A stretch of DNA of 64,000 nt. It comes from Microbacterium pseudoresistens. Its GTDB lineage: Bacteria > Actinomycetota > Actinomycetes > Actinomycetales > Microbacteriaceae. The notes under the pieces are model-generated. The model made no database searches. It saw nothing but the letters and a program-made list of their open reading frames with translations, and was not told the DNA's origin. The stretch covers positions 1,240,001 to 1,304,000 of the forward strand of contig NZ_JACCBH010000001.1 in NCBI RefSeq assembly GCF_013409745.1, in the 5' to 3' direction. Each line of letters starts with the position of its first letter. The stretch's first letter is position 1. A program made the translations under genes and the position numbers. Shown piece after piece: positions 20,004 through 64,000 of the stretch.

Positions 20004-20006
20004 GTG

Positions 20007-23839: not shown

Positions 23840-23887
23840 TTGAGAGCTGTGTAAAGTGAGTCCATCGACCAACGAAGGAGTTCCGTC

Positions 23888-44350: not shown

Positions 44351-44462
44351 TGCGGGAGCACGCCTCCCGCCCCTGGAGAGAGTCTACGTAGTCCGCGTCG
44401 GGTGCCGATCCGCAGGGGTGAGAGTGGCGGCTAGATGGTTGAAGTTGCCCTCCGGATCTGTT

Positions 44463-44474
44463 GAAATCGATTTC
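44463..44474. promoter_or_regulatory. LacI-type operator before the GH183-like lipoprotein gene
   Basis: GAAATCGATTTC, a perfect 12-bp palindrome with a central CG, 27 bases before the ATG at 44502. TTGAAG, 17 bases and TGAAAT overlap it as a possible promoter. The same core occurs at 45654 and, nearly, at 63344. Confidence 0.75.
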
Positions 44475-44501
44475 TGATCCGATCCCAGGGAGTGTGATCC
44501 G

Positions 44502-45632
44502 ATGCGCAGGTCTTGTTGCACGGCGGTGCTTGCGGCCGTCGCCCTGATGGCACTGTCCGGATGCTCCACCGATCAGGTGACGCTTGATCCGAACCCCGAC
44601 AAACCGTTCGTCCTGGGCGGCGTGTCCGAGCTCACCGAGATCGCGCAGCTCACGGGGCCCGGTGCGATCAACGACACCGAGTCGGTCATGGTGGCCGGTA
44701 CGGATCTCGGCTCCATGGTCAACGTCGGCGACCGGACGCTGTTCCTGTTCGGCGACACGTTCGGCGAGCGCGATCCCGACTCGACCGGCGGGCAGGGAGA
44801 CATGTGGCGTTCCAACACAGGGGCGTGGACGACGGATGACGACCCGGCCGACGGCATCGAGTTCGACGGCTGGGTCGACGATGCCCTCGGAATCGCCGCG
44901 CCCTTGATCGAGGGCGATCACCAGGGCAACGATGCGGGCGGCGAGGTGACGAAGATCCCGACCTACGGCTTCACCGTCGGGTCGAACATCTACGTCTCGT
45001 ACATGTCGGTGAAGCACTGGGGCGCGGCCGGCGACTGGGATGCGAACTACGCCGCACTGATCGTGTCGCACGATGACGGCGAGACCTGGGAGCAGGTGGA
45101 AGGGGTTCAGTGGCCGGGCGACTCGGATTTCGTCCAGTTCGCGGCGGCTCAGGTCTCTGACGGGGCGCGGGACTGGGTGTATCTGTGGACGATCCCGGCC
45201 GGGCGATTCGGCAACGTTCATCTGATGCGCGTACCCGCGACTCCGGAGTCGGTCGAATCGCAAGCGGCGTACGAGTACTTCGCGGGCACGGATGACGGGG
45301 ATCCGATGTGGAGCACGGAGCTCAGCGAGGCAGCACCGGTGGTCGAGGGGACGATCGGCGAGCTCTCGGTCGTGTGGTCGTCGTATCTCGAGCGGTGGCT
45401 GATGACATACTCCGACGGCGGTGACGCGATCATCCGCGAAGGCGTGACCCCGTGGGGGCCGTGGGGTGATCCGCTCGTGCTCGTCCCGGGGGATCAGTAC
45501 GACGGGCTCTACTCGCCGTACATGAATCCGCGCTATGTCGACGACGACGGCCGCCGGATCTACTTCACCCTCTCGTTGTGGGGGCCGTACAACGTCTTCT
45601 GGTTCTCCGCGGAACTGGACAGGATCGAATGA
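44502..45632 (+). CDS. DUF4185 (GH183-type) lipoprotein, probable endo-D-arabinanase
   Basis: 376 residues with a lipoprotein signal (LMALSGC, Cys 21). The mature protein is a five-bladed-propeller type DUF4185 domain: VGDRTLFLFGDTFGERDPDS, then WRSNTGAWTTDDDPADGIEF, and late YSDGGDAIIREGVTPWGPWGD with SPYMNPRYV. Family GH183 members from Microbacterium cut D-arabinan of mycobacterial arabinogalactan and lipoarabinomannan. Here, anchoring outside the cell and a shared operator with the ABC/GH116 operon next door fit that role. The substrate is inferred from family and context, not seen directly. Confidence 0.78.
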   Translation: MRRSCCTAVLAAVALMALSGCSTDQVTLDPNPDKPFVLGGVSELTEIAQLTGPGAINDTESVMVAGTDLGSMVNVGDRTLFLFGDTFGERDPDSTGGQGDMWRSNTGAWTTDDDPADGIEFDGWVDDALGIAAPLIEGDHQGNDAGGEVTKIPTYGFTVGSNIYVSYMSVKHWGAAGDWDANYAALIVSHDDGETWEQVEGVQWPGDSDFVQFAAAQVSDGARDWVYLWTIPAGRFGNVHLMRVPATPESVESQAAYEYFAGTDDGDPMWSTELSEAAPVVEGTIGELSVVWSSYLERWLMTYSDGGDAIIREGVTPWGPWGDPLVLVPGDQYDGLYSPYMNPRYVDDDGRRIYFTLSLWGPYNVFWFSAELDRIE

Positions 45633-45645
45633 CTTCAGGTCGGTG

Positions 45646-45674
45646 TTGTGCTTGAAATCGATTTCGTCTAATCT
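45646..45674 (+). promoter_or_regulatory. Promoter with LacI operator in its spacer
   Basis: TTGTGC (45646-45651), exactly 17 bases, TAATCT (45669-45674). The spacer contains GAAATCGATTTC (45654-45665), the same perfect palindrome as at 44463. A repressor here would block RNA polymerase directly. The mRNA leader to the ATG at 45782 is about 100 bases. Confidence 0.75.
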
Positions 45675-45781
45675 GACGTGCAGGTCGTCGGAGACCACCA
45701 CGGGTCTTCGATCACGTCAAGGTCGACGGGGCCTGCCACAGCAACGACTCACCGAGGAGTCGCGTTCCTGAGGAGGGACAG

Positions 45782-47098
45782 ATGCACAAGAACACCAAGA
45801 GGCTTGGACTTGCGATCACGGCCGCCGCTGCATCCGTGATCTTGATGGCGGGCTGTTCCGGCGGGGGCGGCGGCGGTGGCGCCGCGGGCGATCCGGAGAG
45901 CGGCGACCTGACCTTCGTCTACATGGGCGACACTGACCAGCAGAAGGCCTTCAACTCCCTGTTCGCGGAGTTCAACAAGCAATACCCCGACATCAAGCTC
46001 AAGGCACAGGGCATCCCGAGCGGCGACTGGGCGACCTTCTCGAACACGGTGGCCACCCGGCTCGCGGGCGGTCAGAAGATCGACATCATCCAGGTCGCGA
46101 CCGAGGGTCAGCGGATGTTCGCCTCCAAGGGCGTCCTCGAGCCGCTGGCGCCCTTCATCAAGGAGGACCAGAAGTATGTCGACGACTACTGGAACGACAT
46201 CAACCCGCGGCTGAAGGAGTTCAACGAGACCTACGCATCGGACCCCGATGGTGAAACCGTTTTCATCCCCGGGGGTTACAACACGATGGGGATGTACCTG
46301 AACAAGCGGGTGTTCGAGGCGGCGGGAGTCGCCATCCCCGAGGACGGCAACTGGACCTGGGATGAGTTCCACACCGCCGCCCAGCAGATCAAGGAGAAGA
46401 CGGGTGCGTACATGCTCCCCGCCGGCTCCGGATACTTCGATACCGTGATGCCGTGGCTGACCACGAACGGCGGGAGCACCTTCACCGATGACTGGGAGAC
46501 CCCGACCTACGACAGCCCTGAGGCCGTCGAAGCCGCCGAGTTCGCCCGCAGCCTCGTCGAAGAAGGGCTCGCTCCCGAGCCCGGCGGCCAGTTCGACACG
46601 AACGCCGCGTTCGCCCAGGACAAGCTCGCGATCATCAACGGAGGCCGTTGGCCCACGATCGCGATCCGCGACCTCGACATGGTGGAGAACACCGTGTTCG
46701 TGAACTGGCCGACGAAGGTCGGCAACGGATCGCCCGTCGGATGGGACGCGTGGAACATCACCAAGAACAGCCAGAACAAGGAAGCGGCCTGGACGTTCAT
46801 CAAGTTCCTCATGTCGGAAGAGGCCAGCCAGTACTTCGCGAGCGTCGGCGGAACGATCGTTCCGGCGCGCGACTCCGTCGCCGTGTCGAGCTTCTTCACC
46901 GACGACGCTCCCGAGCACAGCGTGCGACTGAGTGAGGCGATGGACTTCGCCACTCCGATCCCGTCGATCGATCGCGGCGCTGAGGCGCAGAAGCTGATCG
47001 AAGAGACCTGGACGACGATCATCTCCGGTCAGGGCGATGCCCAGGAGACGCTGTCCAAGGCGCAGAAGGAGCTCGAAGGCCTTGTCGGCAGCAAGTGA
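45782..47098 (+). CDS. ABC transporter oligosaccharide-binding lipoprotein
   Basis: 438 residues, signal ending ILMAGC (Cys 25), followed by a Gly run. Family 1 solute-binding fold (PF01547/13416): LTFVYMGDTDQQKAFNSLFAEFNKQ, IDIIQVATEGQRMFASKGVL, and WTWDEFHTAAQQIKEKTG. First gene of a five-gene operon, likely capturing arabino-oligosaccharides released outside the cell. AGGAGGGA is an ideal ribosome-binding site. Confidence 0.92.
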   Translation: MHKNTKRLGLAITAAAASVILMAGCSGGGGGGGAAGDPESGDLTFVYMGDTDQQKAFNSLFAEFNKQYPDIKLKAQGIPSGDWATFSNTVATRLAGGQKIDIIQVATEGQRMFASKGVLEPLAPFIKEDQKYVDDYWNDINPRLKEFNETYASDPDGETVFIPGGYNTMGMYLNKRVFEAAGVAIPEDGNWTWDEFHTAAQQIKEKTGAYMLPAGSGYFDTVMPWLTTNGGSTFTDDWETPTYDSPEAVEAAEFARSLVEEGLAPEPGGQFDTNAAFAQDKLAIINGGRWPTIAIRDLDMVENTVFVNWPTKVGNGSPVGWDAWNITKNSQNKEAAWTFIKFLMSEEASQYFASVGGTIVPARDSVAVSSFFTDDAPEHSVRLSEAMDFATPIPSIDRGAEAQKLIEETWTTIISGQGDAQETLSKAQKELEGLVGSK

Positions 47099-47102
47099 CG
47101 CC

Positions 47103-48008
47103 ATGATGGTGCGGCGGCCCGGGGCATCGCTCCGGCGCCGCCGCACCACCATCGCAGGATGGTTCTTCGTCAGCCCGGCGCTGCTGCTGTTCCTCGTCTT
47201 CATTGCGGGACCGTTCGTCTTCGCCATCGCCCTGGCGCTGTTCAAGTGGGATCTGCTGACCGAGCCGAGCTTCGTCGGCGCGAAGAACTTCGTCGACCTG
47301 TTCTCGGATCCAGTGCTGCCCACGGTGCTGATGAACACGTTCGTCTTTGCGGCCGCATCCGTGGTGACGCACCTCCTGTTCGGCCTGCTGCTGGCCATCG
47401 CGGTGAACCGCATCATCAGCCGCGCCTTCGGCTACTTCCTCCGGGTGGCGATCTTCTTCCCGTTCCTCATCTCGTGGGCGGCGGTGTCGTTGCTGTGGAA
47501 GTACGTGCTCGATCCGACCTTCGGTTACGTCGCGCAGTACGCGGCGATGATCGGGATCGACCTTCCGAACTTCTTCGCAGACCCGGCCTGGGCGCTTCCG
47601 GCGATCATCTTCATCGATCTCTGGCACACGCTCGGATTCACCTTCATCATCATGCTGGCCGGCCTGCAGACCGTTCCGCGCGAGTTGATCGAGGCCGCGA
47701 AGACGGATGGCGCGACGGCCTGGCAGACGTTCTGGAACGTGACGCTGCCGCTGATGTCGCCCACGCTGTTCTTCGCCACGATCATCACGTTCATCGGTGC
47801 CTTCCAGATCTTCGACCCGATCCAGATCATCACCCGGGGCGGGCCGCAGAACTCCACGAAGACCATCGTCATGTACCTGTACGAGAAGGGCTTCCAGGCC
47901 TTCGACATGGGGTATGCGGCGGCCGTGGCCCTCCTCGTCTTCGTGATCGTGATGGCCGTCACGCTGCTGCAGTTCCTCGGCCGCAGGAAGTGGGTGTTCG
48001 AATCGTGA
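47103..48008 (+). CDS. ABC sugar permease, MalF/UgpA type
   Basis: 301 residues with six helices. After basic MMVRRPGASLRRRR comes GWFFVSPALLLFLVFIAGPFVFAIALALF; the EAA loop is ELIEAAKTDGATAWQTFWNVTLPLMSP, which docks to the ATPase. It partners with the permease at 48005, whose GTG overlaps its stop (GTGA). Confidence 0.93.
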   Translation: MMVRRPGASLRRRRTTIAGWFFVSPALLLFLVFIAGPFVFAIALALFKWDLLTEPSFVGAKNFVDLFSDPVLPTVLMNTFVFAAASVVTHLLFGLLLAIAVNRIISRAFGYFLRVAIFFPFLISWAAVSLLWKYVLDPTFGYVAQYAAMIGIDLPNFFADPAWALPAIIFIDLWHTLGFTFIIMLAGLQTVPRELIEAAKTDGATAWQTFWNVTLPLMSPTLFFATIITFIGAFQIFDPIQIITRGGPQNSTKTIVMYLYEKGFQAFDMGYAAAVALLVFVIVMAVTLLQFLGRRKWVFES

Positions 48009-48895
48009 CTGTCACCAACGAGATCGTCGGCGCACCGGACCTGCTGACCCGCGTCGACCGGTCGCGGCGCACGCGCAGGCACGCGGCGGACCGCATCGTC
48101 GCCGTCATCCTGTTCATCTTCGGCGTGCTCATGCTGTCGCCGCTGATCTGGCTGGTCATGACCAGCCTGACCGACCGCGCCGCGGCATTCGCGTCACCGC
48201 CCAAGTGGCTGCCGATACCGTTCACGATGGAGAACTTCGGCAAGGTCTTCGAACTGATGCCGATCGGGCAGCAGTTCCTCAACTCGCTGATCGTCGCCGT
48301 CATCAGCACCGCGGGGTCGCTGTTCTTCTCGCTGCTCGCGGCGTACGGCTTCGCGCGCATCCGATTCCGCGGGAGCGGGACGCTCCTGGTCATCATGCTC
48401 TCCGCGCTCATGGTGCCGGCCCAGCTGCTGATCATCCCGATCTTCATCATGATGCGGGAGCTGAGCCTGGTCGACACGCTGGCGGCGCTGTGGCTGCCCG
48501 CACTCGTCAACGTCTTCCAGATCTTCTTCCTCACGCAGTACTTCAAGACCATTCCGCGAGAGCTGGACGAGGCGGCGACGATCGACGGCGCCGGACACGG
48601 ATGGATCCTGTTCCGGATGCTGCTGCCGTTGTCCGGCCCGGCGATCGCCGCGCTCGCGATCCTCGGCTTCGAGGCGTCATGGAACGCCTACTTCGCACCG
48701 CTGATCTTCCTCGCCAGTCCGGAGAACATGACCCTCCCGCTGGGTCTGGTCGTGCTCCAGAACGGGTTCGGGGCCGCACCCGCCGTCGTGGTGTTCGCCG
48801 CGATCACCATGGTCGTGCTGCCGCTGCTGATCCTCTTCCTCGCATTCCAGCGTCAGTTCGTCGAGAGCGTCGCCGCGACGGGGCTGAAGGGGTGA
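48005..48895 (+). CDS. ABC sugar permease, MalG/UgpE type
   Basis: 296 residues with six helices, starting at GTG overlapping the previous stop. MLSPLIWLVMTSLTDRAAAFA is the MalG-type first periplasmic part; the EAA loop is ELDEAATIDGAGHGWILFRMLLPLSGP. No ATPase gene is in this operon, as is common in actinobacteria where one MsiK/UgpC-like ATPase serves many importers. Confidence 0.93.
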   Translation: MTVTNEIVGAPDLLTRVDRSRRTRRHAADRIVAVILFIFGVLMLSPLIWLVMTSLTDRAAAFASPPKWLPIPFTMENFGKVFELMPIGQQFLNSLIVAVISTAGSLFFSLLAAYGFARIRFRGSGTLLVIMLSALMVPAQLLIIPIFIMMRELSLVDTLAALWLPALVNVFQIFFLTQYFKTIPRELDEAATIDGAGHGWILFRMLLPLSGPAIAALAILGFEASWNAYFAPLIFLASPENMTLPLGLVVLQNGFGAAPAVVVFAAITMVVLPLLILFLAFQRQFVESVAATGLKG

Positions 48896-49614
48896 CCGTG
48901 TCGTATGAGGCAGCGCCGCGCAGGATCGATCCGATTCTGCTGCGTCTTCCGGCGGCGCTGTGGTCGGCATTGCCGCGGTTGGTCGTCGCGGGGGCGCTCT
49001 TCATGCTCGCTCTCGTCGCATCGAGCGGCCTGCCCGGCGGGTTCGCGGTGCTCGCGCCGCTCATCGCCGCGGTTCTCACCGCCGTGCCCACGGGGTGGGC
49101 GATGGCACGCATCAGCACCGACGTCTTCGACGCGCAGGTGGCCTCGCCGGCGGTTCGATACGGCCGTGCGCTCCTTCTGATCGGTGGGCCGGGAGCGACG
49201 GTGAGCCTGACGGCATGCGCGGCGATGATCACGCCGACGATGCCGGCCTTCTCGTTCGTGAGCATCGTCGGCGTCGTCCTCACCGGGGTGGCCGTGCTGG
49301 TCGTGTCCGTCGCTCTTCCCCTGTCGACGGTGAGATCCGAAGCGCTGTCCTCGATCCTCGTCGCCGCCTTCTACGCGGTTGCTCGCCGACCGATCCCCCC
49401 GGTCGCCGTGCTCGTCGCACTCGGCGCCGCGACCTGGGCGTCGACGACCTGGGCGCCCAGCGCCCTCGTCCTGATCCCCGCCGTCGCGGTCGTGCTCTCC
49501 TTCGCCGCCGCCTGGACGGTTCTGCCCGCGGTGGGCGTGCGTCTTCCCGAACTCGCCCCCGTCACATCACGCGCCCTGCCGACCATTACGCACACCACAC
49601 GAGGATTACGATGA
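48892..49614 (+). CDS. YesL-like (DUF624) membrane protein
   Basis: 240 residues with five to six hydrophobic helices, typical of the YesL/DUF624 group that accompanies polysaccharide-derived sugar importers. Conserved landmarks are the end of helix 2 (AVPTGWAMARISTDVFD) and the C-terminal-side PLSTVRSEALSSILVAAFYAVA. Function unknown; possibly aids transport or sensing. GTG 48892 overlaps the permease stop (GTGA) and its own stop overlaps the GH116 ATG (ATGA). Confidence 0.7.
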   Translation: MTVSYEAAPRRIDPILLRLPAALWSALPRLVVAGALFMLALVASSGLPGGFAVLAPLIAAVLTAVPTGWAMARISTDVFDAQVASPAVRYGRALLLIGGPGATVSLTACAAMITPTMPAFSFVSIVGVVLTGVAVLVVSVALPLSTVRSEALSSILVAAFYAVARRPIPPVAVLVALGAATWASTTWAPSALVLIPAVAVVLSFAAAWTVLPAVGVRLPELAPVTSRALPTITHTTRGLR

Positions 49615-52166
49615 CCGATCCCGACGAGACCCCTTCGCTGCCGCACGAGGACTCTCTGCTGCATCAGGATTCTCTGCTGCATCAGGGCCTCGCCCACACC
49701 GAAGCGCCGGCGTTGGCCATGCCGGTCGGAGGCATCGGCACCGGTGGATTCGCCGTCGCGGCGGACGGTTCCATGCGCCAGTGGCAGCTGACGGGAAAGC
49801 CGAATCATCGGGGCGCGCTCCCCGGGACCGCATTCTGGATCCGCGCGACGCAGATCGAGCCGCCGGTGGATTTCACCGCGATGCTCCAGGGGACTCCGCA
49901 AGACGATCCGGCCGCACCGCTCGTGACAGACGGCGAGGTACCCGAATGGATGCGCGACGCGGCCGAGCGCGTCGGCACGTTCCGGAACGCGGCATTCTCG
50001 GGAACGTACCCGTTCGCAGAGGTGGCGCTGTCCGACGAGCGCAGCCCGGTGGCGGTGACGCTGCGGTACTTCAATCCGATGGAGCCGGGCGACGTCGAGT
50101 TCAGCAGCCTCCCGGGTGCCGGTGTGCAGATCCGCATCGAGAACACGAGCGATGTCGATGTGCACGGTACCCTCGCAGGCTCGATGCTGAACGCGGTCGG
50201 GTGGGACGGCGTCACCCCCATCGGGGCGACGGCCCCGGGCCTCGGCGGCAACGTCAACCGGTTGCGTCGCGCCGGCGGATGGACATCCGTGGTGATGGAC
50301 AACCCCGCCCTGACCGAGACGGATCCGTTCGCCGGGCAGATGGTCATCGCGACCGATGACGCCGATGCCGCGGTGCTGCCGCGATGCACCGGTGTGGACC
50401 ACCTCGTGACCTTCCTCGAATCGCGCGCCCTCAACACCGGTGTGTCGCGGCTCCGTCAGGCGCCGATGATCGCCGACCCCCAGCTGAACGCGCCGGCGAG
50501 CGGCGTCGGTCCGAGCCCCGCCGGGACGTCGTGGCTCGGGGTGGTCGGCGTGCCGTTCCGGCTGGCGCCCGGAGAATCCCGCACGATCCGCTTCGCGCTC
50601 ACCTGGTACTTCCCCAATCGCATGGTCGACATCGAGCAGTTCGGCCAGAACTCCGCGGAGTGGGGATCGACGCGCTTCTATCTCGGCAACGCCTACGCGC
50701 TGCGTCATCCGGATGCCGTGGCCGTGCAGGAGACGTTCGCCACGCAGTGGGACGAGCTGGTGCGGCGCACGTCGGCGTGGACGCAGACGCTCATGGATTC
50801 CGATCTCGACGAGCGCATGGTCGATCGGATGGCGGCCCAGGCCGCACTCGTGCGCAGCCCGACGTGCTTCATCGGCGCCGACGGGCGCTTCTACGGATAC
50901 GAGGGCTCGCTCGGTGCGTCCACGGTCATGTGGGCGGCGAGCTTCGGCGGATCCTGTCCCCTCAACTGCACGCACGTCTGGCAGTACGAGGCCGCTCTGG
51001 CCGGCCTGTGGCCGGAGCTCGAGCGGAACATGCGCGATACGGAGTTCGATGTGCTGCAGGCCCCCTCGGGGGCGATCCCGCATCGACTGCGCGTGCCGAC
51101 GTATCTTCCGCAGATGCACGACGAGATCATCGGGGGGCCCGAAGAGCCCGCCCTCGACGGCATGCTCGCCACCATCCTGAAGACTCTGCGCGATGTGCAG
51201 CACGGGGCGGGCAAGGACTGGCTGGAGGGGCGTTGGGACGCGATCATCCGGCTCTACCGCCACGTCGTGGAGAAATGGGATCTCCACGACGACGGCGTGC
51301 TCCACGGGATCCAGCCGAGCACGCACGACATCGATCTCGCCGGGATCAACCCGTTCATGGGCACGCTGTGGCTCACGGCGCTCCGAGCGCTCGAGGAGCT
51401 GGCCTCGATCGTGGGAGACGATGAGACCGGTGAAGACGCCCGGCGGCGCTTCCTCTCCGGGTCCGCAGCGTACGACGAACGCCTGTTCCGGGACGGGCAC
51501 TACATCCAGGTGCTGGAGGACGGCGACCCCGACGAGTTCCAGTGGCTGACCGGAACGCTCAGCGACCAGGTCATCGGCCAGTGGTGGGCGCACCAGCTCG
51601 GTCTCGGGTACATCCTGCCGGAGGAGCACATCCGTAGCGCGCTGCGTCACATCGTGAAGACGAACCTCCGCCACGGGTTCGACGACTTCGCGCACATCTA
51701 TCGCGTCTATGCCGATGCTGCGGACGACTCGGGTCTGCTCATGTGCTCGTGGCCGGCGGGCGGGCGACCGGAGGTGCCCACGCGGTACGCCGACGAGGTG
51801 TGGAGCGGCGTGGAGTATCAGGTCGCCGCGCACTGTCTGTACGAGGGGCTCGACGAAGAGGCGCAGAGCATCCTCGATGCCATGTGGACCCGGTCCGACG
51901 GGCGTCGGCGCAATCCGTACAACGAGATCGAGTGCGGCGACCATTACGTCCGCGGCATGGCGGGGTGGACCGTGCTTCAAGCAATGACCGGTGTGCACAT
52001 CGATGAGCTGGCCGGAACGATGGTCGTGTCTCGGGACGGCCGCTGGCCGTGGATCTCGTCGACGGGATACGGCCTGGTGCAGGTCACCGAAGACTGCGTC
52101 GACATCGACGTCCGCGCGGGTAGCGTCGACCTCTCCGTTCAGCGTGCCGCGCGGGCCGAAGCCTGA
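49611..52166 (+). CDS. GH116 family glycosidase, probable exo-beta-D-arabinofuranosidase
   Basis: 851 residues, no signal peptide, so cytoplasmic. An N-terminal beta-sandwich (ALAMPVGGIGTGGFAVAADG) precedes an (alpha/alpha)6 barrel with the GH116 markers: YGYEGSLGAST (Glu 431, candidate nucleophile), CPLNCTHVWQYEAALAGLWP, HDIDLAGINPFMGTLW (Asp candidate acid/base) and ADEVWSGVEYQVAAH. Known members cut beta-glucosides or, in Microbacterium, beta-D-arabinofuranosides; the operon setting supports the latter. Residues 12-26 hold a short duplicated SLLHQ. Last gene of the operon. Confidence 0.82.
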   Translation: MTDPDETPSLPHEDSLLHQDSLLHQGLAHTEAPALAMPVGGIGTGGFAVAADGSMRQWQLTGKPNHRGALPGTAFWIRATQIEPPVDFTAMLQGTPQDDPAAPLVTDGEVPEWMRDAAERVGTFRNAAFSGTYPFAEVALSDERSPVAVTLRYFNPMEPGDVEFSSLPGAGVQIRIENTSDVDVHGTLAGSMLNAVGWDGVTPIGATAPGLGGNVNRLRRAGGWTSVVMDNPALTETDPFAGQMVIATDDADAAVLPRCTGVDHLVTFLESRALNTGVSRLRQAPMIADPQLNAPASGVGPSPAGTSWLGVVGVPFRLAPGESRTIRFALTWYFPNRMVDIEQFGQNSAEWGSTRFYLGNAYALRHPDAVAVQETFATQWDELVRRTSAWTQTLMDSDLDERMVDRMAAQAALVRSPTCFIGADGRFYGYEGSLGASTVMWAASFGGSCPLNCTHVWQYEAALAGLWPELERNMRDTEFDVLQAPSGAIPHRLRVPTYLPQMHDEIIGGPEEPALDGMLATILKTLRDVQHGAGKDWLEGRWDAIIRLYRHVVEKWDLHDDGVLHGIQPSTHDIDLAGINPFMGTLWLTALRALEELASIVGDDETGEDARRRFLSGSAAYDERLFRDGHYIQVLEDGDPDEFQWLTGTLSDQVIGQWWAHQLGLGYILPEEHIRSALRHIVKTNLRHGFDDFAHIYRVYADAADDSGLLMCSWPAGGRPEVPTRYADEVWSGVEYQVAAHCLYEGLDEEAQSILDAMWTRSDGRRRNPYNEIECGDHYVRGMAGWTVLQAMTGVHIDELAGTMVVSRDGRWPWISSTGYGLVQVTEDCVDIDVRAGSVDLSVQRAARAEA

Positions 52167-53843: not shown

Positions 53844-53845
53844 CG

Positions 53846-55620: not shown

Positions 55621-55645
55621 TGAAGGAACTCCAAAGAAGGGCTGC

Positions 55646-56695: not shown

Positions 56696-56705
56696 GACGA
56701 AAATG

Positions 56706-56737
56706 TAGACCGCGCGGAGAAGATCCCGCGCGGTCTA
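56706..56737. terminator. Bidirectional terminator between convergent operons
   Basis: TAGACCGCGCGG (56706-56717) pairs with CCGCGCGGTCTA (56726-56737), with ATCATTTCGG after it and AAAATG before, between the dehydrogenase and isomerase stops. Confidence 0.8.
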
Positions 56738-56750
56738 TCATTTCGGTCCG

Positions 56751-58556
56751 TCAGTCGTCGCTCGTGCGCGACCCTCGTACATAGGCCTTGATGGTGGCGA
56801 GGCGCTCGCTGCGGGTCCGCTCGGTCCGTTCGATCCGGTAGCGGCCGACGGATGCCGGAACGATGAACGTCTCGGCGTAGTGGACGACGTAGGGTTCGAA
56901 CGCCCCTGTCGGGCTCACCACCCGAGCCTCGTCACCCTCCACGAGGTTGATGACGTTGACGGTGCCGTCGGTGTCGTGATCGGCGCTCTGGGCGAACCAG
57001 TGGCGGCGCGTCTCGATGAACTCGAGCGCGTGCAGGCCGGTGCGCTCCTCGATCGTGCCGCCGTCGTTGCTGATCGTCTCGACCTGGCCGATAAGGTTCT
57101 CGTTCACCCAGTCGGTGTCGCGATCCCACTGGATGTTGCGAGAACCGTGATCGAGATGCACCGGGCGCGGGATGCCGTCGAGTCCGACCCGACCCCAGTC
57201 CCACAGCTTGAACGTGAAGATGAACGGCGTCGCCGAGATCTCGAGTACCATCGAGTTCGCGCCCGAGCAGTGGATCGTGCCGGCCGGGATGGCGAAGTGG
57301 TCGTGCTTGCGAGCCGGGAAGGAGTTGATGTACTTCTCGGCGGGGAAGGGCGTCTCACCCTGTTGTGCGGTGGCGAGGTCGGCGAGCATCGCGTCTTGAT
57401 CGATGCCGTTCTTCGTGCCGAGGTAGACCACCGCATCGTCAGCGGCATCCAGCAGATAGTAGCTCTCGTCCTGCGTGTACGGCATGCCGAACGTGTTCTG
57501 GATGTAGTCGGTGAGCGGATGCACCTGCAGGCTGAGGTTGCCGCCGTCCATGGTGTCCAGGAAGTCGAAGCGGATCGGGAACTCGGCGCCGAATCGCGCG
57601 AAGGTCTTGGCGCCGAGCAACTCGACGGGCCTGGCGGACACGAGGTCGAGCGACGGGATCTCGATGACCCCGCCGTCGCCCGCCAGGAGCAGCGAGTTCT
57701 CCTCGGGCACGCAGTCGAAGCACCAGGCGTAGTTGTCCTTGGACGGGTCGAGGCCGATGAGCGACTTCATCCACTGGCCGCCCCACACTCCAGGGTCGAA
57801 GAACGGCACGACGCGGAAGGGGCGAGTGGCGGCATCCCGAAGCGCGGTGCGGAACGCCTCACCGGTGATCATGCCGGCGTCGGGGGAATCGGGGTGGGGC
57901 TCTGCTGGAGCGATCGCGTTGCCGTCGACGACGAAGTCGACGGTGTCGAAGAGGGAGCGCTTGTGCCGGTCGGCGACGCGCCACTCGACGAAGAACCCGC
58001 GCTTGTACTTGCGGAGGATGTCTTCGCCCGAGTTGTCGGCTCGCCAGTTCGTCGCCCCGGCGCGCAGACGCAACTGGATCTCCCAGCGGGCCATGTCGAC
58101 CAGGACGGTCGAGGTCTTCTCCTCGACGCGATCGGCGAGCAGAGCGGCGCCCCACCCGATCACGAGCGTCCTGTCGGCGATGGTGGATGCCAGCTCGTCG
58201 AGTTTCGCGTCGTCGTAGAAGTCGGTGAGGGTGAAGTGGCTCATGACGCCGAAGACGCGGTCGTCCGTGAGATTCGAGGCGATCAGCTGCTCTACCTCGG
58301 CGACCGGGTGCGCGGCATCCTCGACGTTCACCACCGTCCAGTCGGGCAAGGACTCCTGGAGCTGTGCCGTGAGCGCCGGGATGTCGACGCCGGGATAGGT
58401 GTCGACGAGCAGAACGGTCGCGGTCTCGGCGGCGGCCCGCCACGCAGCGGGTCCGCGGAGGATGCGCTCACCGCCGGGGAGCGGCACGGTGGGCTGGGTG
58501 TCGTAGCGACCGCGTTCGGTGCGTCCGTCGTGCATGTCGCTGATCGGGGTGGTCAA
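56751..58556 (-). CDS. Class I mannose-6-phosphate isomerase-like protein with a P-loop-kinase-like N-terminal domain
   Basis: 601 residues, about 200 more than a plain isomerase. Residues 1-215 form an alpha/beta domain without Walker A (ATVLLVDTYPGVDIPALTAQL, WTVVNVEDAAHPVAEV, VIGWGAALLA) resembling an uridine-kinase-like fold. From about 225 (PFFDPGVWGGQWMKSLIGLD) comes the cupin-type PMI core: MDGGNLSLQVHPLTDYIQ and the later HDHFAIPAGTIHCSGANSMVLE with the zinc-binding His/Glu. The TTG at 58556 is taken as start because AGGAG lies six bases upstream and it overlaps the ROK stop (TTGA); ATG 58535 is the alternative. It would interconvert mannose- and fructose-6-phosphate. Confidence 0.75.
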   Translation of the reverse strand: MTTPISDMHDGRTERGRYDTQPTVPLPGGERILRGPAAWRAAAETATVLLVDTYPGVDIPALTAQLQESLPDWTVVNVEDAAHPVAEVEQLIASNLTDDRVFGVMSHFTLTDFYDDAKLDELASTIADRTLVIGWGAALLADRVEEKTSTVLVDMARWEIQLRLRAGATNWRADNSGEDILRKYKRGFFVEWRVADRHKRSLFDTVDFVVDGNAIAPAEPHPDSPDAGMITGEAFRTALRDAATRPFRVVPFFDPGVWGGQWMKSLIGLDPSKDNYAWCFDCVPEENSLLLAGDGGVIEIPSLDLVSARPVELLGAKTFARFGAEFPIRFDFLDTMDGGNLSLQVHPLTDYIQNTFGMPYTQDESYYLLDAADDAVVYLGTKNGIDQDAMLADLATAQQGETPFPAEKYINSFPARKHDHFAIPAGTIHCSGANSMVLEISATPFIFTFKLWDWGRVGLDGIPRPVHLDHGSRNIQWDRDTDWVNENLIGQVETISNDGGTIEERTGLHALEFIETRRHWFAQSADHDTDGTVNVINLVEGDEARVVSPTGAFEPYVVHYAETFIVPASVGRYRIERTERTRSERLATIKAYVRGSRTSDD

Positions 58557-59431
58557 TGCGTCTCCTGGTCTATGGCGGTCGTCGGATGCGCCTGGCGGGC
58601 GAGGGTGCTCAGCCCCCGGGCGACGGAGTACTCGGGTTCGGGCGGGACGATGAAGCGCGGCGCGGTCATCGACGGCCAGAGGTGCTCGCGCACGTGGTCC
58701 TCGATCGGGTAGCGGACCGCGTCGCCGGCGCGCAGGATGCCGCCGGAGAGGATGACGACGGTCGGGTCGTACATGTGGCAGAGCGTGACGACTGTCGTGC
58801 CCCAGACCCGTAGGAACTCGTCGCGGATCTCGGCACGCTCGTCGGACTCGAACAGGTCCTTGACCGTTCCCTGCTGGAGCGCCCAGCTCGATGCCAGCGC
58901 CTCTCCGCACCCGACGTTCCCGCACGGGCAGGTCGGCCCGTGGATGTCGGTCGTGACGTGTCCGCCGAGGATGCCGGCATGACCGGTGACGCCGCGCAGC
59001 GGGACGCCGTCGATTATCGCGGCGGTGCCGATGCCGGTTCCGAGGGTGACCAGCACGGCGTCGCGCTCGCCGGAGGCCGACCCCGTGGATGTCTCGCCGA
59101 TGAGCGCCGCTCGTGCGTCGTTCTCGACGACTGCCGGGAGGCCGAGTTCGTCCTGTGCCCACGAATGCAGGTCGAAGCCCTCGAGGAAGTCGTACTTGTC
59201 GTTGGCGTGCAGCATGAGCCCCGTCGCCGGGTCGACGACGCCGGGAACGGCGATGCCGACCGCGGTCGGCGTGACGTCGGCGCCGTCGATCAGCGCGAGC
59301 GATGCCGTGGCGGCCGCATCGAGGTCGGCGGTGCTGCCGGTGACGGGGATGGTGCCTGATGCCATGATGCCGGCGCCCTCGATGACGGCGAGCTTGATCT
59401 CGGTGCCACCGAAGTCGACGCACAGCTCCAT
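58553..59431 (-). CDS. ROK family sugar kinase
   Basis: 292 residues. MELCVDFGGTEIKLAVIEG is the ATP-binding DxGGT motif; VVENDARAALIGE and LVTLGTGIGTAAIIDG follow; the zinc motif CPCGNVGCGEALAS (CxCGxxGCxE) is intact. Substrates of this family include glucose, mannose and N-acetylmannosamine. Coupling to a mannose-6-phosphate isomerase argues for mannose or a related hexose. AGGAG precedes the ATG. Confidence 0.9.
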   Translation of the reverse strand: MELCVDFGGTEIKLAVIEGAGIMASGTIPVTGSTADLDAAATASLALIDGADVTPTAVGIAVPGVVDPATGLMLHANDKYDFLEGFDLHSWAQDELGLPAVVENDARAALIGETSTGSASGERDAVLVTLGTGIGTAAIIDGVPLRGVTGHAGILGGHVTTDIHGPTCPCGNVGCGEALASSWALQQGTVKDLFESDERAEIRDEFLRVWGTTVVTLCHMYDPTVVILSGGILRAGDAVRYPIEDHVREHLWPSMTAPRFIVPPEPEYSVARGLSTLARQAHPTTAIDQETH

Positions 59432-59452
59432 AACCGCACTCCTATCTCAACG

Positions 59453-59488
59453 ATTGGTAACGTTACCAATTTTGCCCGGGGGTGTCAA
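59453..59488 (-). promoter_or_regulatory. Promoter with perfect LacI operator for the ROK-isomerase operon
   Basis: On the minus strand: TTGACA (59488-59483), 17 bases, TAACGT (59465-59460). The -10 lies within ATTGGTAACGTTACCAAT (59453-59470), a perfect 18-bp palindrome. The LacI gene just upstream (59516-60541) is the evident regulator. Confidence 0.8.
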
Positions 59489-59515
59489 CACCTCTCGTGA
59501 GGGGCGAAGTGCGCC

Positions 59516-60541
59516 CTACCGCAGATGCATCCGCAGCTGCACGGGGAGCTCGACTTCGCGGGCTTCGCCGCCGTCTCCTGAGGCATCCAGCCTGTCCAGC
59601 AGCAGTCGTGCAGCCGTCCGCCCCAGTTCCCGCGGGTCGTGATCGATGACGCTGATCGGCACGGGCGAGAGCTCGGCGAGCTCGAAGTCGTCGAAGCTCA
59701 TGATCTCGGGATACTCCGACACCGGCTTGATCCCCGAGCCGAGCTGCCTGTTGATCTCCTTGAGTGCGCCGATGGCGTTGCGGTTGTTGGCGCAGAACAG
59801 CGCAGTCGGCGGGTTCTTCATACGCAGCATCGCCCTGGTGGCTTCGCGGGCCTGATCGACGGTCTGCTGTCCGGCGGCGATGAGCGCCGGATCGAGCGGG
59901 ATGCCGCGTTCCTCGAGAGCGCGGACGAATCCGGCGTGCCGACGGCGTCCGGTGAAGATCGAGAGCGTGTTGCCGAGGTATCCGATGCGCGTGTGGCCGG
60001 CGTCGATGAGTGCACTAGCTCCGCGATGCGCGCCGTCGTCGTCGGCGAGGACGACAGTGTCGGCATCCAGCCCGTCGATGCGCCGCGACGCCTGCACGAC
60101 AGGGACGCCCTGCTGCTGCGAGGCGGCGAGGTGGTCGGCGTCCGTGCTTGCCGGGACGACGATGAGCCCCTCGACCCGTCTCCCGAGGAAGTCGCTCACG
60201 AGGGCGTTCTCGCGGTCGGCGTCCTCCGAGGTGTTTCCGAGCAGGATGCGCCGGCCGGTCAGCGCCGCCTCCTCTTCGACGCCGAGCGCGAAGGTGCTGT
60301 AGTACGGGTTGGCGATGTTTGTGATGGCGACGCCGATGAGCCCGCTGGAGTGCCCCGGTCGGATGCTGCGCGCGTTCTCATTGCGGTGATAGCCGAGGTC
60401 GGCGACGGCGGCGAGGACGCGCTCCTGCACATCGGGCTTGACGTTGAGACCGCCCGAGAGCGTGCGCGAGACGGTCATCGGGCTCACGCCGGCGTGCTGC
60501 GCGACCTCCTTGATGGTCGGGCGGTGTGCCCGTGCGCTCAT
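59516..60541 (-). CDS. LacI family repressor
   Basis: 341 residues. Helix-turn-helix and hinge: RPTIKEVAQHAGVSPMTVSRTLSGGL, then RNENARSIRPGHSSGLIGVA. The sugar-binding core is periplasmic-binding-protein type 1 (GVAITNIANPYYSTFALGVE). ATG 60541 has GGAGG upstream; an earlier frame start adds 24 non-conserved residues. It should bind the palindrome at 59453 and, for itself, 60563. Confidence 0.9.
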   Translation of the reverse strand: MSARAHRPTIKEVAQHAGVSPMTVSRTLSGGLNVKPDVQERVLAAVADLGYHRNENARSIRPGHSSGLIGVAITNIANPYYSTFALGVEEEAALTGRRILLGNTSEDADRENALVSDFLGRRVEGLIVVPASTDADHLAASQQQGVPVVQASRRIDGLDADTVVLADDDGAHRGASALIDAGHTRIGYLGNTLSIFTGRRRHAGFVRALEERGIPLDPALIAAGQQTVDQAREATRAMLRMKNPPTALFCANNRNAIGALKEINRQLGSGIKPVSEYPEIMSFDDFELAELSPVPISVIDHDPRELGRTAARLLLDRLDASGDGGEAREVELPVQLRMHLR

Positions 60542-60562
60542 TCCTGCCTCCAGCCCGATGCA

Positions 60563-60577
60563 GGGAACGTTACCATT
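60563..60577 (-). promoter_or_regulatory. Likely autoregulatory LacI half-operator
   Basis: AATGGTAACGTTCCC on the minus strand: the left half and centre of ATTGGTAACGTTACCAAT with a degraded right half, 22 bases before the LacI start. Confidence 0.5.
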
Positions 60578-60630
60578 CACGCCGATTCCGGTGAACAACA
60601 CCGTGTCGGCCACTGGCGGGAGGCCGCTGT

Positions 60631-61002
60631 TCAGCCGACGCGAGCCTGTGTGGGGAGCCCACGTCGTTCGGCCTCCTGGATCAGCCGGGTCGCGGCATCC
60701 TTGAAGGTCTCGGCATCCGTGACGCCGTCCAGCAGGAGCGTCGCCGATCCGGTGCCGGGCGTCGATCCGTCCTTGACGAGGTAGTCGGCGCGTCCGAGGG
60801 ATGCGCGGGAGGCCGCGGCGTCTCTCAGATGCAGGACAAACGACCGTGAACCGTCGCCGACCCCCGAGATGCTGCTCCAGGGGAAGTCGACGCCCTGCCA
60901 GTGGGTGGCGTCCTCATCGGCGGCGAGTGCCGCATCGACCTTGCCCAGGGCAGCTTCGACCTCTCCGTTCCGCACGCCGCGGGGGCCGGTGCTCGACGTC
61001 AC
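60631..61002 (-). CDS. Small protein of unknown function coupled to the GH183-like gene
   Basis: 123 residues from GTG 61002, which overlaps (GTGA) the stop that the upstream lipoprotein would use in its repaired frame. Sequence features: EVEAALGKVDAALAADEDA, then WQGVDFPWSSISGVGDGSRS and TFKDAATRLIQEAERRGL at the end. No signal peptide or membrane segment; alpha/beta composition. No family recognised. Confidence 0.55.
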   Translation of the reverse strand: MTSSTGPRGVRNGEVEAALGKVDAALAADEDATHWQGVDFPWSSISGVGDGSRSFVLHLRDAAASRASLGRADYLVKDGSTPGTGSATLLLDGVTDAETFKDAATRLIQEAERRGLPTQARVG

Positions 61003-62176
61003 CCCGGAGCACCGTCGAGCGACAGCTCGCGCAGCCCGAACCAGTACGAGGTGACGCCTGCGGGAGCACAGGGGCAGACATTGGACTGCACACCCACAGC
61101 GTGCGCTCATCATCGGAGACGTATTTCGACGGGATCGTCGTGCCGTAGCCGCCGATGCGTTCGGCATCCCACGGATACTCGCCGAAGTCCTCGGAGAGGA
61201 ACAGCGTCCACGGACCCCAGGGCTCAGGCGACTCGTAGAACTCGAAGGTGAACTCCGTCCACGAGGTGTAGAGGTAGCGATCCCGCTTCGGCAGATACGT
61301 GACGCCGCCCTGGGAGAGGACGCTCAGGTCGTACGTGCCCTTCTGGGCGGTCGAATCACGGGGATGCCGGCGACGCTCATCGACGAGGACGGGGCGTTTC
61401 GCGCCGATGTCGTCGGTCCAGGTGGCCTCGTCGTCGCCGGGCTCGCCGGCGTAGAACTGCCACGTCGACGCATCCTGCACGGACTTCACCGGGACGCGGG
61501 CAAGGAAGAGCTCGGTGGGATCGGGGACGACGTCGGAGAAGGAGTCGCGCCAGTTGCCATCCAGTCCGTAGGCGTAGGCGTACGCCGGATCGGGCGCCGT
61601 CGCTGCATCCTGCCCGTAGTCCGCGAACCAGACGGTGGTGAACACGCCGCCATCGAACATCGGCGCCGCCTCATCCCAGGACCAGGACTTTCCGTGGTCA
61701 TCGCTGCGGGCGATGGTGGCCGCCGGCGCCTGGTTGAAGTCGGCGGCGAGGTCCTGCACCGCGAGATAGATCGCCCCGTCGATGCACAGCATCCCGGTCG
61801 GCTTTCGAGTGAACCCGTCGCCGGACCAGACCTGGCCGAGATCATCGCCGAGGGCGAGCACCTCGCCCTCGAGGTCGTCCTCATACGGACTCCCTGTGAC
61901 GCGGTTCATGACGATGTCGCTGAATTCGCCGCCGAAACCCGCGCCGTCGCCGTTCGCCGTGTAGAGCGCGTCGTCATCGGACCAGCAGTTGGGCCACAGA
62001 TCGCCGTCGGAGAAACTGGCCACGGTCGGCGCATCGGCCACTGCCGCTGTGAAGGCAGCACCGGGAAGAGGTGAGGGCGGAGCGAGCTGATCAGCACTCT
62101 CGCCCGCTGCGCATCCCGTCGCGATCAGCATGACGGCGAGCCCGGCGGCGGCCGACCCGCGTCGCGCACCCCGCAC
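60999..62176 (-). pseudogene. Second DUF4185-like lipoprotein gene with a +2 frameshift near its 3' end
   Basis: Begins at GTG 62176 with a lipoprotein signal (VMLIATGC, Cys 22). A sialidase/DUF4185-like propeller follows: SFSDGDLWPNCWSDDDALY, GFTRKPTGMLCIDGAIYLAV, ARSDDHGKSWSWDEAAPMF, YLYTSWTEFTFEFYESPEPW. At ERTLWV the reading continues into unrelated Arg-rich sequence to 60914; moving two bases (extra GT/TG in CTGCACACCCACAG, about 61088-61093 on the plus strand) restores LWVQSNVCPCAPAGV and SYWFGLRELSLDGAPG, the usual ending, with stop at 60999. So a two-base insertion broke it, or it is a read error. An active form would be a second secreted endo-D-arabinanase-type enzyme. Confidence 0.75.
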
Positions 62177-62181
62177 GGCGA

Positions 62182-63315
62182 TCAGCTCCGCGGTTCGCGC
62201 GGCGGCGTGGCGCCGATGTCAGGAACCGGAGCGGTTCCTAGGTGCACCTCCAGTTCGTCCGGCGTCGGTGTCTTGGGGCGCCGGGCGGTGGGACGATCGA
62301 GGTAGAACATGGCGGTCGAGGCGATGTCGTCGCGCAGGGGCAGGTAGCGCCATCCGCTGCGCCACCCGAGCGCCTGGATGTCGACCTTGGGGATGCCGGT
62401 GGCGAAGTGGATCGGGTCGAGCAGGTGCCAGCGGTACATGCCGAAGCGCTGCTGGCTCACGTACAGCCCGTCGGGGCGGATCACCTGCGGCATCCCGAGA
62501 TACGGCGTCGAGAAAGCCGTATATCCCTCGCCGGGAATATCGAAGTTCCACGCACCGCCGAAGTAGTCCTCGGTGCCGGTGCCCGCGATGGTCGGGTAGT
62601 CGGTGTCGCCGTCGAGGTAGAACTTGATCTCGCCTTCGCCCCACCACCCGTTGGAGTTCACACCCCAGGCGATGTAGGTGCCGACGTACTGTCCCTGCCC
62701 CTCGATGCCCTCCAGGATCACGTGCGGAGTCTTGTCCTCGAGGGGATTGGAGCGACGCCACTGCGCGTGGAAGTACCCGTCGTTCGAGTAGTCCCCGCCG
62801 ATCTCGTACGTGACCTGGTAGTACACCCGCACGTCGACGACGGAGGTGTTCTCGATCGTCAGGCGCGCGCCCTCGCGGAACGGCATGGGCCAGTATGAGT
62901 TGAAACCGCCGTGCGGGTTGGCGGCGATGGCCTGCGAGTTCACCTGCGCGAACACGCCCCAGCCGTTGCAGAAGAAGTCGCCGTAGGGCACCTCGACGGC
63001 GGGCTCCTCGGAGCCGTCCCAGTACGCGCGCAGCAGCAGCGTGCGCCAGTTGTCGGTGTGCGTCGTGATCCAGATGTGCGTGATCTTGCCGGCGCCCTCG
63101 ATGGACGCCAGCTCGAACGTCTCGCCCGCCTTGATGTCGACGCTGGGCGAGATCTTCCACCCCGGGCCCAGATCACGCGCGCAGTCGGCGCCCGTGCCCT
63201 CGGTGGCGCGCCCGCCGCCTCCGACGGAGCCGTCGAAGTTCTCCGGAGAGATGGATCGGGTCTGCACGGTGCGCAGGGCAGACAGCGAGGCGAGGTCGGA
63301 AGAGGGAAGGCTCAT
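62182..63315 (-). CDS. GH172 (DUF2961) glycosidase, probable exo-alpha-D-arabinofuranosidase
   Basis: 377 residues, no signal peptide. The DUF2961 jelly-roll core includes GGFNSYWPMPFREGARLTIEN and the catalytic region WWGEGEIKFYLDGDTDYPTI-AGTGTEDYFGGAW, with acidic candidates Glu 227/229 and Glu 249. GH172 includes difructose-anhydride enzymes and exo-alpha-D-arabinofuranosidases that trim arabinan. Next to DUF4185-like genes and under the shared LacI operator, the arabinan role is favoured. Starts at ATG 63315 seven bases after a -10 box, with no ribosome-binding site (leaderless type). Confidence 0.82.
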   Translation of the reverse strand: MSLPSSDLASLSALRTVQTRSISPENFDGSVGGGGRATEGTGADCARDLGPGWKISPSVDIKAGETFELASIEGAGKITHIWITTHTDNWRTLLLRAYWDGSEEPAVEVPYGDFFCNGWGVFAQVNSQAIAANPHGGFNSYWPMPFREGARLTIENTSVVDVRVYYQVTYEIGGDYSNDGYFHAQWRRSNPLEDKTPHVILEGIEGQGQYVGTYIAWGVNSNGWWGEGEIKFYLDGDTDYPTIAGTGTEDYFGGAWNFDIPGEGYTAFSTPYLGMPQVIRPDGLYVSQQRFGMYRWHLLDPIHFATGIPKVDIQALGWRSGWRYLPLRDDIASTAMFYLDRPTARRPKTPTPDELEVHLGTAPVPDIGATPPREPRS

Positions 63316-63322
63316 GGGTCAC

Positions 63323-63363
63323 ACCGTACTCAGTCGCGAAATCTGTTGCAATCGATTTCAACA
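63323..63363 (-). promoter_or_regulatory. GH172 promoter overlapping a LacI operator
   Basis: On the minus strand TTGCAA (63351-63346), 17 bases, TACGGT (63328-63323). The -35 is part of TGTTGCAATCGATTTCAACA (63344-63363), a 20-bp near-perfect palindrome sharing the ATCGAT centre with 44463 and 45654. It lies between the divergent GH172 and LacI genes. Confidence 0.7.
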
Positions 63364-63408
63364 GGATAACCTTGCACCAGGCGTCATCCGATGCCGCCGA
63401 AGGGAACC

Positions 63409-64000
63409 ATGGCGACGATCTATGACGTGGCGCGAGCGGCCGGCGTCTCACCGGCCACGGTCTCTCGCGTGTTCAACGGCGCCAGCGTCTCGGATGAGAA
63501 GGTCGCGGCGGTGCGCCACGCGGCCGGGCAATTGAAGTTCACGCCCAACCGCACGGCCCGCACCCTGCGGCGGCAGAGCTCCGAGGTGATCGCCCTCGTG
63601 ATCCCCGATATCGAGAACCCGTATTTCACCGAGATGGCGCGCGGCGTCGAAGATGTCGCGTCCGAGGCCGGCTATTCGGTCGTGCTGTGCAATTCGGATG
63701 CGCAGCTCGAGAAGGAGGCCACCTATCTGCGGATCGCGGTCGCCGAGCACATGTCGGGCGTCATCCTCGCTGCGGCATCCGATCACTCCGAGATCGCCGA
63801 GCTGACGGCGGCGGGGCGCCCCGTGGTCGCCGTCGACCGCAGCATCGGCGACGACGTCGACGGGGTGGTCATGGCCAACCGCGATGCGGGCCGGGCGGCG
63901 ACCGTGAACCTCATCGAGGCCGGGTACCGGCGCATCGCTCACATCGCAGGCCCCGAGCACATCGAGACGGCTGCCGACCGCGCCGACGGCTGGCGTCGCG
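63409..64000 (+). CDS. LacI family repressor, 3' end outside window
   Basis: 197 residues visible, open to the window end. MATIYDVARAAGVSPATVSRVFNGA is the helix-turn-helix; RTARTLRRQSSEVIALVIPD the hinge; then the sugar-binding core (IENPYFTEMARGVEDVASEAG). ATG 63409 has AAGGG upstream. It is divergent from GH172 with the operator between, so it is the best candidate regulator of all three GAAATCGATTTC-type sites. Confidence 0.9.
   Translation, partial: MATIYDVARAAGVSPATVSRVFNGASVSDEKVAAVRHAAGQLKFTPNRTARTLRRQSSEVIALVIPDIENPYFTEMARGVEDVASEAGYSVVLCNSDAQLEKEATYLRIAVAEHMSGVILAAASDHSEIAELTAAGRPVVAVDRSIGDDVDGVVMANRDAGRAATVNLIEAGYRRIAHIAGPEHIETAADRADGWRR

Follow-up and report, generated by a model that had tools for sequence, protein, structure and literature searches.

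Do the sugar genes at the end of a 64-kb stretch of the Microbacterium pseudoresistens genome form one system for the utilisation of D-arabinan, or more than one? The stretch, called the window in the following, covers positions 1,240,001 to 1,304,000 of contig NZ_JACCBH010000001.1 and belongs to a single-contig genome of 2.91 Mb. A first-pass annotation had read it from 44.4 kb to its end as one D-arabinan utilisation locus, split into two blocks about 9 kb apart, with two glycoside hydrolases of family GH183, one each of GH116 and GH172, an ATP-binding cassette (ABC) importer and control by a LacI-type repressor. Our analysis confirmed the observation and partly supported the interpretation: the finding is real, was largely read correctly and concerns a variant of a published system. 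We consider it quite probable that the locus is a variant of the published Microbacterium D-arabinan utilisation locus, organised as a regulon of the repressor LacI2 and its operator, with a separate cassette inserted into it.

Genes were called on the window and the next 16 kb and scanned with Pfam. Comparisons across the genus cover 295 Microbacterium genomes, the window's own included. Up to three candidates for GH116, four for a mannose-6-phosphate-isomerase-like protein (PMI), five for the solute-binding proteins (SBPs) SBP1 and SBP2 and six for GH172 were scored per genome, and a weak second copy could escape. The locus stretches compared comprise 26 named ones (L003-L028) and 27 numbered D-arabinan ones (L123-L129 and L143-L162), and some genomes are present in both sets.

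Enzymes of the D-arabinan blocks

A family search of the four proteins gave the families that had been read from the sequence, for the second GH183 protein only just. The two blocks, measured from the end of the GH116 gene (52166) to the start of GH183b (60914), are 8.7 kb apart. The strongest assignment is that of the GH172 protein (62182..63315, minus strand), a predicted exo-alpha-D-arabinofuranosidase of the ExoMA1 type. It matches DUF2961/GH172 in Pfam with 289 bits and, in a sequence search of the PDB, aligns through residues 7-373 with ExoMA1 (8ic8; 820.9 bits, E 1.9e-246). Asn253 of ExoMA1, which according to the text of Shimokawa et al. (2023, PMC10509167) confers specificity for D-arabinofuranose (D-Araf), has an aligned equivalent in the Asn of an AWNF motif. 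Judged by its sequence, the protein is a close relative of, and nearly the same protein as, the characterised exo-alpha-D-arabinofuranosidase ExoMA1. A second, more distant GH172 clade (45-50% identity; for example in G029, G026 and G138) is found in eleven Microbacterium genomes.

The GH116 protein (49611..52166, plus strand), a candidate exo-beta-D-arabinofuranosidase, is a rare, divergent version of ExoMA2. Its N-terminal and catalytic domains score 148 and 119 bits in Pfam, and ExoMA2 (8ic6) is its closest relative in the PDB with 341.5 bits, followed by 66 bits for the next best match. In a MAFFT alignment of 19 GH116 proteins it holds the equivalents of Glu431 (nucleophile), His446, Arg483 and Asp557 (acid/base) of ExoMA2, the reference set given in the text of Shimokawa et al. 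(2023, PMC10509167); this mapping uses the motifs shared with 8ic6 and assumes a numbering offset of 4 in the 8ic6 chain. Loss of the nucleophile had been considered, as phmmer placed an Ala opposite the Glu of ExoMA2, and was rejected: the Glu, in YEG or WEG, is present in all 19 rows of the multiple alignment. The version found in the window (at least 68% identity) occurs in nine of the 295 genomes, all of which also hold GH172, and other versions (32-40%) in 56; no genome gave two GH116 matches at E 1e-60 among its up to three scored candidates. Here GH116 is part of the importer block, whereas in most other Microbacterium loci seen it is flanked by the kinase and isomerase genes. Both enzymes travel together in the genus: GH172 and GH116 occur jointly in 63 genomes, GH172 without GH116 in one and GH116 without GH172 in two. 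The families, the ExoMA1-type GH172 with its Asn253 equivalent and this co-occurrence leave the proposed D-arabinan utilisation well supported.

Of the two GH183 proteins, GH183a (44502..45632, plus strand) is a putative surface lipoprotein endo-D-arabinanase. It exceeds the Pfam cut-off for DUF4185/GH183 by far (273 versus 39.5 bits) and matches EndoMA1 (8hhv) in the PDB with 160 bits. The equivalents of EndoMA1 Asp33, Asp51, Glu243, Trp138, Arg198, Leu292 and Tyr293 are kept, that of Pro141 is lost; the residue numbering was verified through the D51N difference in 8ic1. GH183b (60914..62176, minus strand) is a divergent DUF4185 lipoprotein that found no match by sequence in the PDB. The three best matches of its predicted fold (mean pLDDT, the predicted local distance difference test, 79) are EndoMA1 (8ic1 and 8hhv) and the mycobacterial endo-D-arabinofuranase 8an0; the best, to EndoMA1, has a query-normalised TM-score of 0.52 at 15-16% identity. 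These two are the only DUF4185 genes detected in the genome at E<=0.001. By position they may correspond to MIAR_33320 and MIAR_33220 of M. arabinogalactanolyticum, but this is uncertain: GH183b-type genes are present in several of the loci compared here, yet Shimokawa et al. (2023, PMC10509167) report in their text no homologue of MIAR_33220 in the other Microbacterium loci that they examined. The same text states that these two proteins of M. arabinogalactanolyticum were not obtained in soluble form. The glycosidase set had been called sufficient for breakdown of mycobacterial D-arabinan; the families do match, but the endo-enzymes here are not the characterised members. Read by eye, lipobox-like leaders open both GH183 proteins and neither GH172 nor GH116, which agrees with the earlier assignment of lipoprotein endo-enzymes and signal-less exo-enzymes.

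A probable common operator

What appears to tie the two blocks to each other is a palindrome, TGAAATCGATTTC. With at most one mismatch allowed, the whole genome has five copies of it, none of them outside this locus, and the reversed pattern used as control has no match. The sites precede GH183a, SBP1, the GH172/LacI2 pair, the kinase gene and the isomerase gene. Three of them lie within the window, against 0.05 expected: an exact one, GAAATCGATTTC, before GH183a (44463..44474; 28.7 bits with an operator matrix), one before SBP1 (45654..45665), which sits inside a promoter-like TTGTGC-N17-TAATCT spacer, and one with a single mismatch between GH172 and LacI2 (63348..63359). The sites before kinase and isomerase, at 64531 and 66257, are beyond the window and were recovered by the genome scan and the matrix. 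With this matrix, derived from 173 sites (137 distinct) of 49 other loci, the five locus sites are the top five in 80 kb (26.9-32.5 bits on the better strand), and the next one, inside SBP1, reaches 17.5 bits.

The LacI2 gene (63409..64389, plus strand) runs past the window end at 64000 and is followed by genes for an FGGY kinase (64588-66099, plus strand) and a FucI-type isomerase with a Fucose_iso_C domain (66318-67949, plus strand). Just past the window end, and out of view of the first-pass annotation, the kinase and isomerase of the published type of D-arabinan locus are present, with predicted sugar specificity. Control by a LacI protein had been proposed before. The shared operator speaks for this, but not for the LacI gene at 59516 (LacI1); the better candidate is LacI2, the gene cut by the window end, and from the sequence data LacI2 rather than LacI1 is likely the repressor of the D-arabinan genes.

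The same arrangement is seen elsewhere. Among the loci compared, 48 of 50 have an operator in front of GH172 or LacI2, and 38 of 43 have one in front of the kinase; these counts include the window, and several genomes enter them twice, once named and once numbered. Exact sites were found in 63 of the 64 genomes with an ExoMA1-type GH172, and no LacI2-type site was found in any of the 13 stretches around the PMI cassette described below. The flanks of the operator are conserved as TTGcGC-N17-TA..cT before the SBP genes and in similar form before the kinase, a pattern that suggests blockage of the promoter spacer by the repressor. In a search of open-licence papers, supplements being outside its scope, no published description of this operator or regulon was found among the papers listed, those for the operator sequences being judged by title.

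Importer and small helical protein

The importer consists, according to Pfam, of the solute-binding lipoprotein SBP1 (45782..47098) and the permeases A1 (47103..48008, scanned as 47037-48008) and B1 (48005..48895), all on the plus strand, and would be a D-arabinan importer of a rare type. This version of SBP1 was found in seven of the 295 genomes at E<=1e-50. The importer is not of the orthologous type of most other Microbacterium polysaccharide utilisation loci (PULs): its permeases are only 24-34% identical to those of the ones seen. That the rare versions of importer and GH116 have the same role as the usual ones is supported by their exchange for one another in loci that are otherwise alike. 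GH183a is retained next to SBP1 or GH172 in five relatives that share this importer version (L123-L127).

Between permease B1 and GH116 lies a gene for a small protein (48898..49614, plus strand) that is probably located in the membrane and accompanies this importer type. It is predicted to be all-helical (mean pLDDT 73). The earlier label "YesL-like" (YesL/DUF624) found no backing, as there was no Pfam match at E<=1 in seven members and no NCBIfam match at E<=0.01 in three. Outside the genus, Flexivirga caeni (L025) has a related importer (52-67% identity) together with a protein of this small helical kind.

The cassette between the blocks

The 8 kb that separate the two blocks are a different matter. 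By sequence, this part (52467-60541) is a sugar cassette in its own right that was inserted between GH116 and GH183b. On the plus strand it encodes SBP2 of a second sugar importer (52467..53843), two permeases (53846..55620) and a zinc-type medium-chain dehydrogenase (55646..56695), and on the minus strand a class I PMI of 601 amino acids (56751..58556), a ROK sugar kinase (58553..59431) and LacI1 (59516..60541), its putative repressor. The 601-amino-acid protein had also been considered as a glycosidase; this was dropped because mannose-6-phosphate isomerases, and also a gene annotated as one of class I, were found to match it. A strong hairpin with a T-rich tail at 56706-56737, where the dehydrogenase and PMI genes converge, is likely a terminator.

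In three close relatives, L123-L125, the two blocks are contiguous: GH183a, SBP1, permeases, small protein and GH116 are directly followed by GH172, LacI2, kinase and isomerase. The genes that separate GH116 from GH172 in the window are missing from these relatives. The other four loci with this GH116 version also have no cassette; GH172 lies between GH183a and SBP1 in L126-L127, and GH116 beside LacI2 in L128-L129. None of the named and numbered D-arabinan stretches, as far as they extend, contains a gene labelled PMI, ROK or LacI1. PMI is present in 43 of the 295 genomes and together with an ExoMA1-type GH172 in 21, but only in the window's own genome are both close together (5.4 kb). In ten of the other 20 they are at least 340 kb apart on one contig, and in ten on different contigs, G162 being in small pieces. 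For SBP2, no ortholog was found in the other 294 Microbacterium genomes (best 37% identity).

The junction of the insertion is marked by a remnant of the 3' end of GH116 at 60933..61005 (plus strand). It is a direct repeat of 52103-52175 (73 nt, 75% identity; blastn E 2e-11) and overlaps the odd tail of GH183b on the opposite strand. A weak sign in the same direction is the GC content of 0.60-0.65 at 52-57 kb versus 0.63-0.70 in the flanks. The cassette also has an operator type of its own, an exact copy of which, TTGGTAACGTTACCAA, precedes ROK at 59454..59469. Weaker copies with three to four mismatches are found at 52359, 52383 and 60561. As sites with up to three mismatches are as frequent in the genome as in the reversed-pattern control (2 and 2 per strand), only the exact site stands on number. 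In other genomes, 11 of 13 PMI stretches have a site with up to three mismatches in front of ROK; of the two exceptions, L142 has it before the PMI frame and in L140 no ROK of the cassette was called. The earlier reading of 44.4 to 64 kb as a single split locus was therefore rejected: the middle part differs in operator type and distribution, and the junction of an insertion is present.

A role of the cassette in the use of mannose or a mannoside is likely from its genes. The neighbours of PMI cassettes, scanned in three stretches, are GH76 and GH38 genes in L140, a GlcNAc_2-epim-family protein in L136 and a weak DUF4185 protein and an esterase in L131. In L131 (3418-10486), LacI1, ROK and PMI continue into an importer and a frame of about 707 amino acids without a Pfam match, then the weak DUF4185/DUF5005 protein and the esterase, of the GDSL type. 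Frames of similar size are present in L130, L132-L135, L137-L139 and L141, L131 being the one scanned. This arrangement is possibly an undescribed glycan cassette.

Two further groups of genes were seen. At 18651-25282 there is another sugar locus with an FGGY-type kinase and a DeoC/LacD aldolase (Pfam) and, by eye, a ribose-type importer (lipoprotein, permease and ATPase) and an oxidase-like gene on the opposite strand. Importer-like genes with an SDR gene are found at L002:17859-20000 (77859-80000 in window-extended numbering), and the SBP at G000:C1:1320460 shares 38% identity with SBP2.

Evidence against the variant locus and alternative explanations

Several observations weigh against our view of a variant D-arabinan locus under LacI2. 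GH183a is not an ortholog of any characterised endo-enzyme, as its 160 bits to EndoMA1 indicate. GH183b barely passes the DUF4185 cut-off (40.4 versus 39.5 bits), has a Gln at the position of EndoMA1 Glu243 (Q289, invariant in 15 sequences of its clade), and its frame leaves its homologues from about 61.09 kb on, where their residues continue in another frame. The odd tail beyond this frameshift is mostly predicted with a pLDDT below 50, and the 3' end reflects either damage or an assembly error. The GH116 protein shares only about 35% identity with the usual GH116 of D-arabinan loci. Only 29 of 44 loci have the operator in front of a gene with the label GH183a, which also catches EndoMA-type paralogues. 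Among the 26 named GH172 stretches, eight, all from other genera, are without an exact site, four of them even when one mismatch is allowed. A strict sigma-70 consensus scan yielded no promoter in 44300-63500, and its one match in L002 was unrelated; the promoter statement is therefore drawn solely from the conserved TTGcGC-N17-TA..cT flanks.

Furthermore, the motif is not exclusive to D-arabinan use, as 38 of the 231 genomes without an ExoMA1-type GH172 also have an exact site. Nine of these 38, picked for having sites, were opened. In all nine, the genes for LacI2, kinase and isomerase lie together and the kinase is preceded by a site; none has the GH183, GH116 or GH172 of this locus within the stretch opened, and some have an importer. 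Because of these nine genomes, LacI2 is assigned to the D-arabinose core, and the switch looks like that of a core for D-arabinose, possibly also for L-fucose, to which the D-arabinan genes were added. In the nine stretches (L163-L171), the module is in part near SDR, DHDPS, MR_MLE or TctA-type genes. The isomerase and kinase could indeed serve L-fucose, as the module adjoins DHDPS-type, SDR (L169) or MR_MLE (L163) genes, and such neighbours recall an oxidative path for fucose or arabinose. On this basis it could be argued that the substrate is another D-arabinofuranose glycan, or a source of L-fucose or D-arabinose, and not the wall of mycobacteria or corynebacteria. This is the most doubtful of the alternatives, since GH183, GH172 and GH116 together match the published set, which is induced by wall extract in a congener according to the text of PMC10509167.

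A composite locus for lipoarabinomannan (LAM) could also be envisaged at 44-68 kb, in which the cassette uses the mannose of the mannan core and caps and its flanks the D-arabinan. PMI and the ROK kinase suggest mannose catabolism, the cassette relative L140 carries a LacI1-type site before its GH76 gene, next to GH38, and the GlcNAc_2-epim-family protein of L136 fits as well; moreover, PMI and GH172 occur jointly in 21 genomes where 9.3 of 295 are expected (Fisher p 2.6e-5, uncorrected for relatedness). But the own genome has no GH76, its single GH38 is about 105 kb away, in none of the other genomes with PMI and GH172 are the two together, and for SBP2 no ortholog was found in the genus. We therefore hold this to be unlikely. 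Just as unlikely is its more specific form, a mannose cassette with its own repressor within the D-arabinan regulon and two LacI switches for both LAM sugars; the two parts have different operators and different repressors. If it were true, the versions of GH116 and importer would be uncharacterised ones in a LAM locus. No better placed is a locus in decay, or one used for scavenging, by which the cell would mainly import D-arabino-oligosaccharides freed by others. There are only two DUF4185 genes, one of them frameshifted at its end, there is no counterpart of EndoMA1 or EndoMA2, and the 2.9-Mb genome is smaller than those of most relatives listed. Against this, GH183a is intact with all catalytic residues and has an exact operator, the relatives with the same importer version retain GH183a beside SBP1 or GH172, and the frameshift could be an assembly error.

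A model of D-arabinan utilisation

We favour the variant D-arabinan locus with an inserted cassette. Directly observed were the identities of the genes, the aligned catalytic residues, the synteny, the distribution of the operator and the insertion junction. According to the model, the lipoprotein GH183a would cut the alpha-D-arabinan of mycobacterial or corynebacterial arabinogalactan and lipoarabinomannan at the cell surface, and SBP1 with permeases A1 and B1 would import the fragments. In the cytoplasm, GH116 would remove terminal beta-D-Araf and GH172 alpha-D-Araf; the FucI-type isomerase and the FGGY kinase would then convert D-arabinose via D-ribulose to D-ribulose-5-phosphate. LacI2 would bind the GAAATCGATTTC palindrome in the promoter spacer, repress the units of GH183a, SBP1, GH172/LacI2, kinase and isomerase, and be released by D-arabinose or a product thereof. 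The cassette, probably for mannose, would be under its own repressor LacI1. Enzyme activities, transport substrate, the pairing of repressor and operator, effector and induction are in this model deduced from sequence.

D-arabinan-stripping enzymes are of use in analysing mycobacterial walls, and the locus offers a second version of importer and GH116 as well as a divergent GH183 clade as candidates to test. The operator is a sequence handle for further D-arabinan or D-arabinose genes; within this genome it points to a single locus. The case also demonstrates that a "split" locus can be resolved through its operators.

Comparison with known systems

GH183 and GH172 enzymes acting on D-arabinan are also reported for Dysgonomonas gadei and mycobacteria by Al-Jourani et al. 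(2023, PMC10115798). The families are the same as here, but the settings, Bacteroidetes and mycobacteria, differ, and the terms Microbacterium, GH116, regulator and repressor are absent from the main text of that paper. The inserted cassette resembles the LacI1-ROK-PMI cassettes L130-L142: the three genes and the operator type are shared, and most of the 13 have the gene order in common with it as well. These differ in being far from D-arabinan genes and in having other importers, GH76 and GH38 (L140) or the 707-amino-acid protein; in the window, LacI1, ROK and PMI lie opposite an importer-dehydrogenase operon of which no other example was seen in the genus.

The closest known system is the D-arabinan PUL of M. 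arabinogalactanolyticum, which according to the text of Shimokawa et al. (2023, PMC10509167) has four GH183 genes, GH172, GH116, an importer, an isomerase and a kinase, and is induced by D-arabinose and by mycobacterial wall extract as seen by quantitative reverse-transcription PCR. The importer, which the first-pass annotation had counted to the undescribed part, is thereby already on record, and the system is not new as a kind. As in that PUL, GH183, GH172, GH116, ABC importer, isomerase and kinase are in one place, with proposed endo-enzymes at the surface and exo-enzymes in the cytoplasm, and GH172 is nearly identical to ExoMA1. Unlike the PUL as described there, the window has only two GH183 proteins, neither of the EndoMA1 type nor, by position, of the EndoMA2 type, rare versions of importer and GH116, GH116 within the importer block and an 8-kb cassette inside. 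Terms for LacI, regulation, repression, operator or promoter are absent from the main text of Shimokawa et al., whereas a regulator and an operator are proposed here. What is new is the assignment of operator and repressor, the rare versions of importer and GH116, and the recognition of the middle 8 kb as a different cassette.

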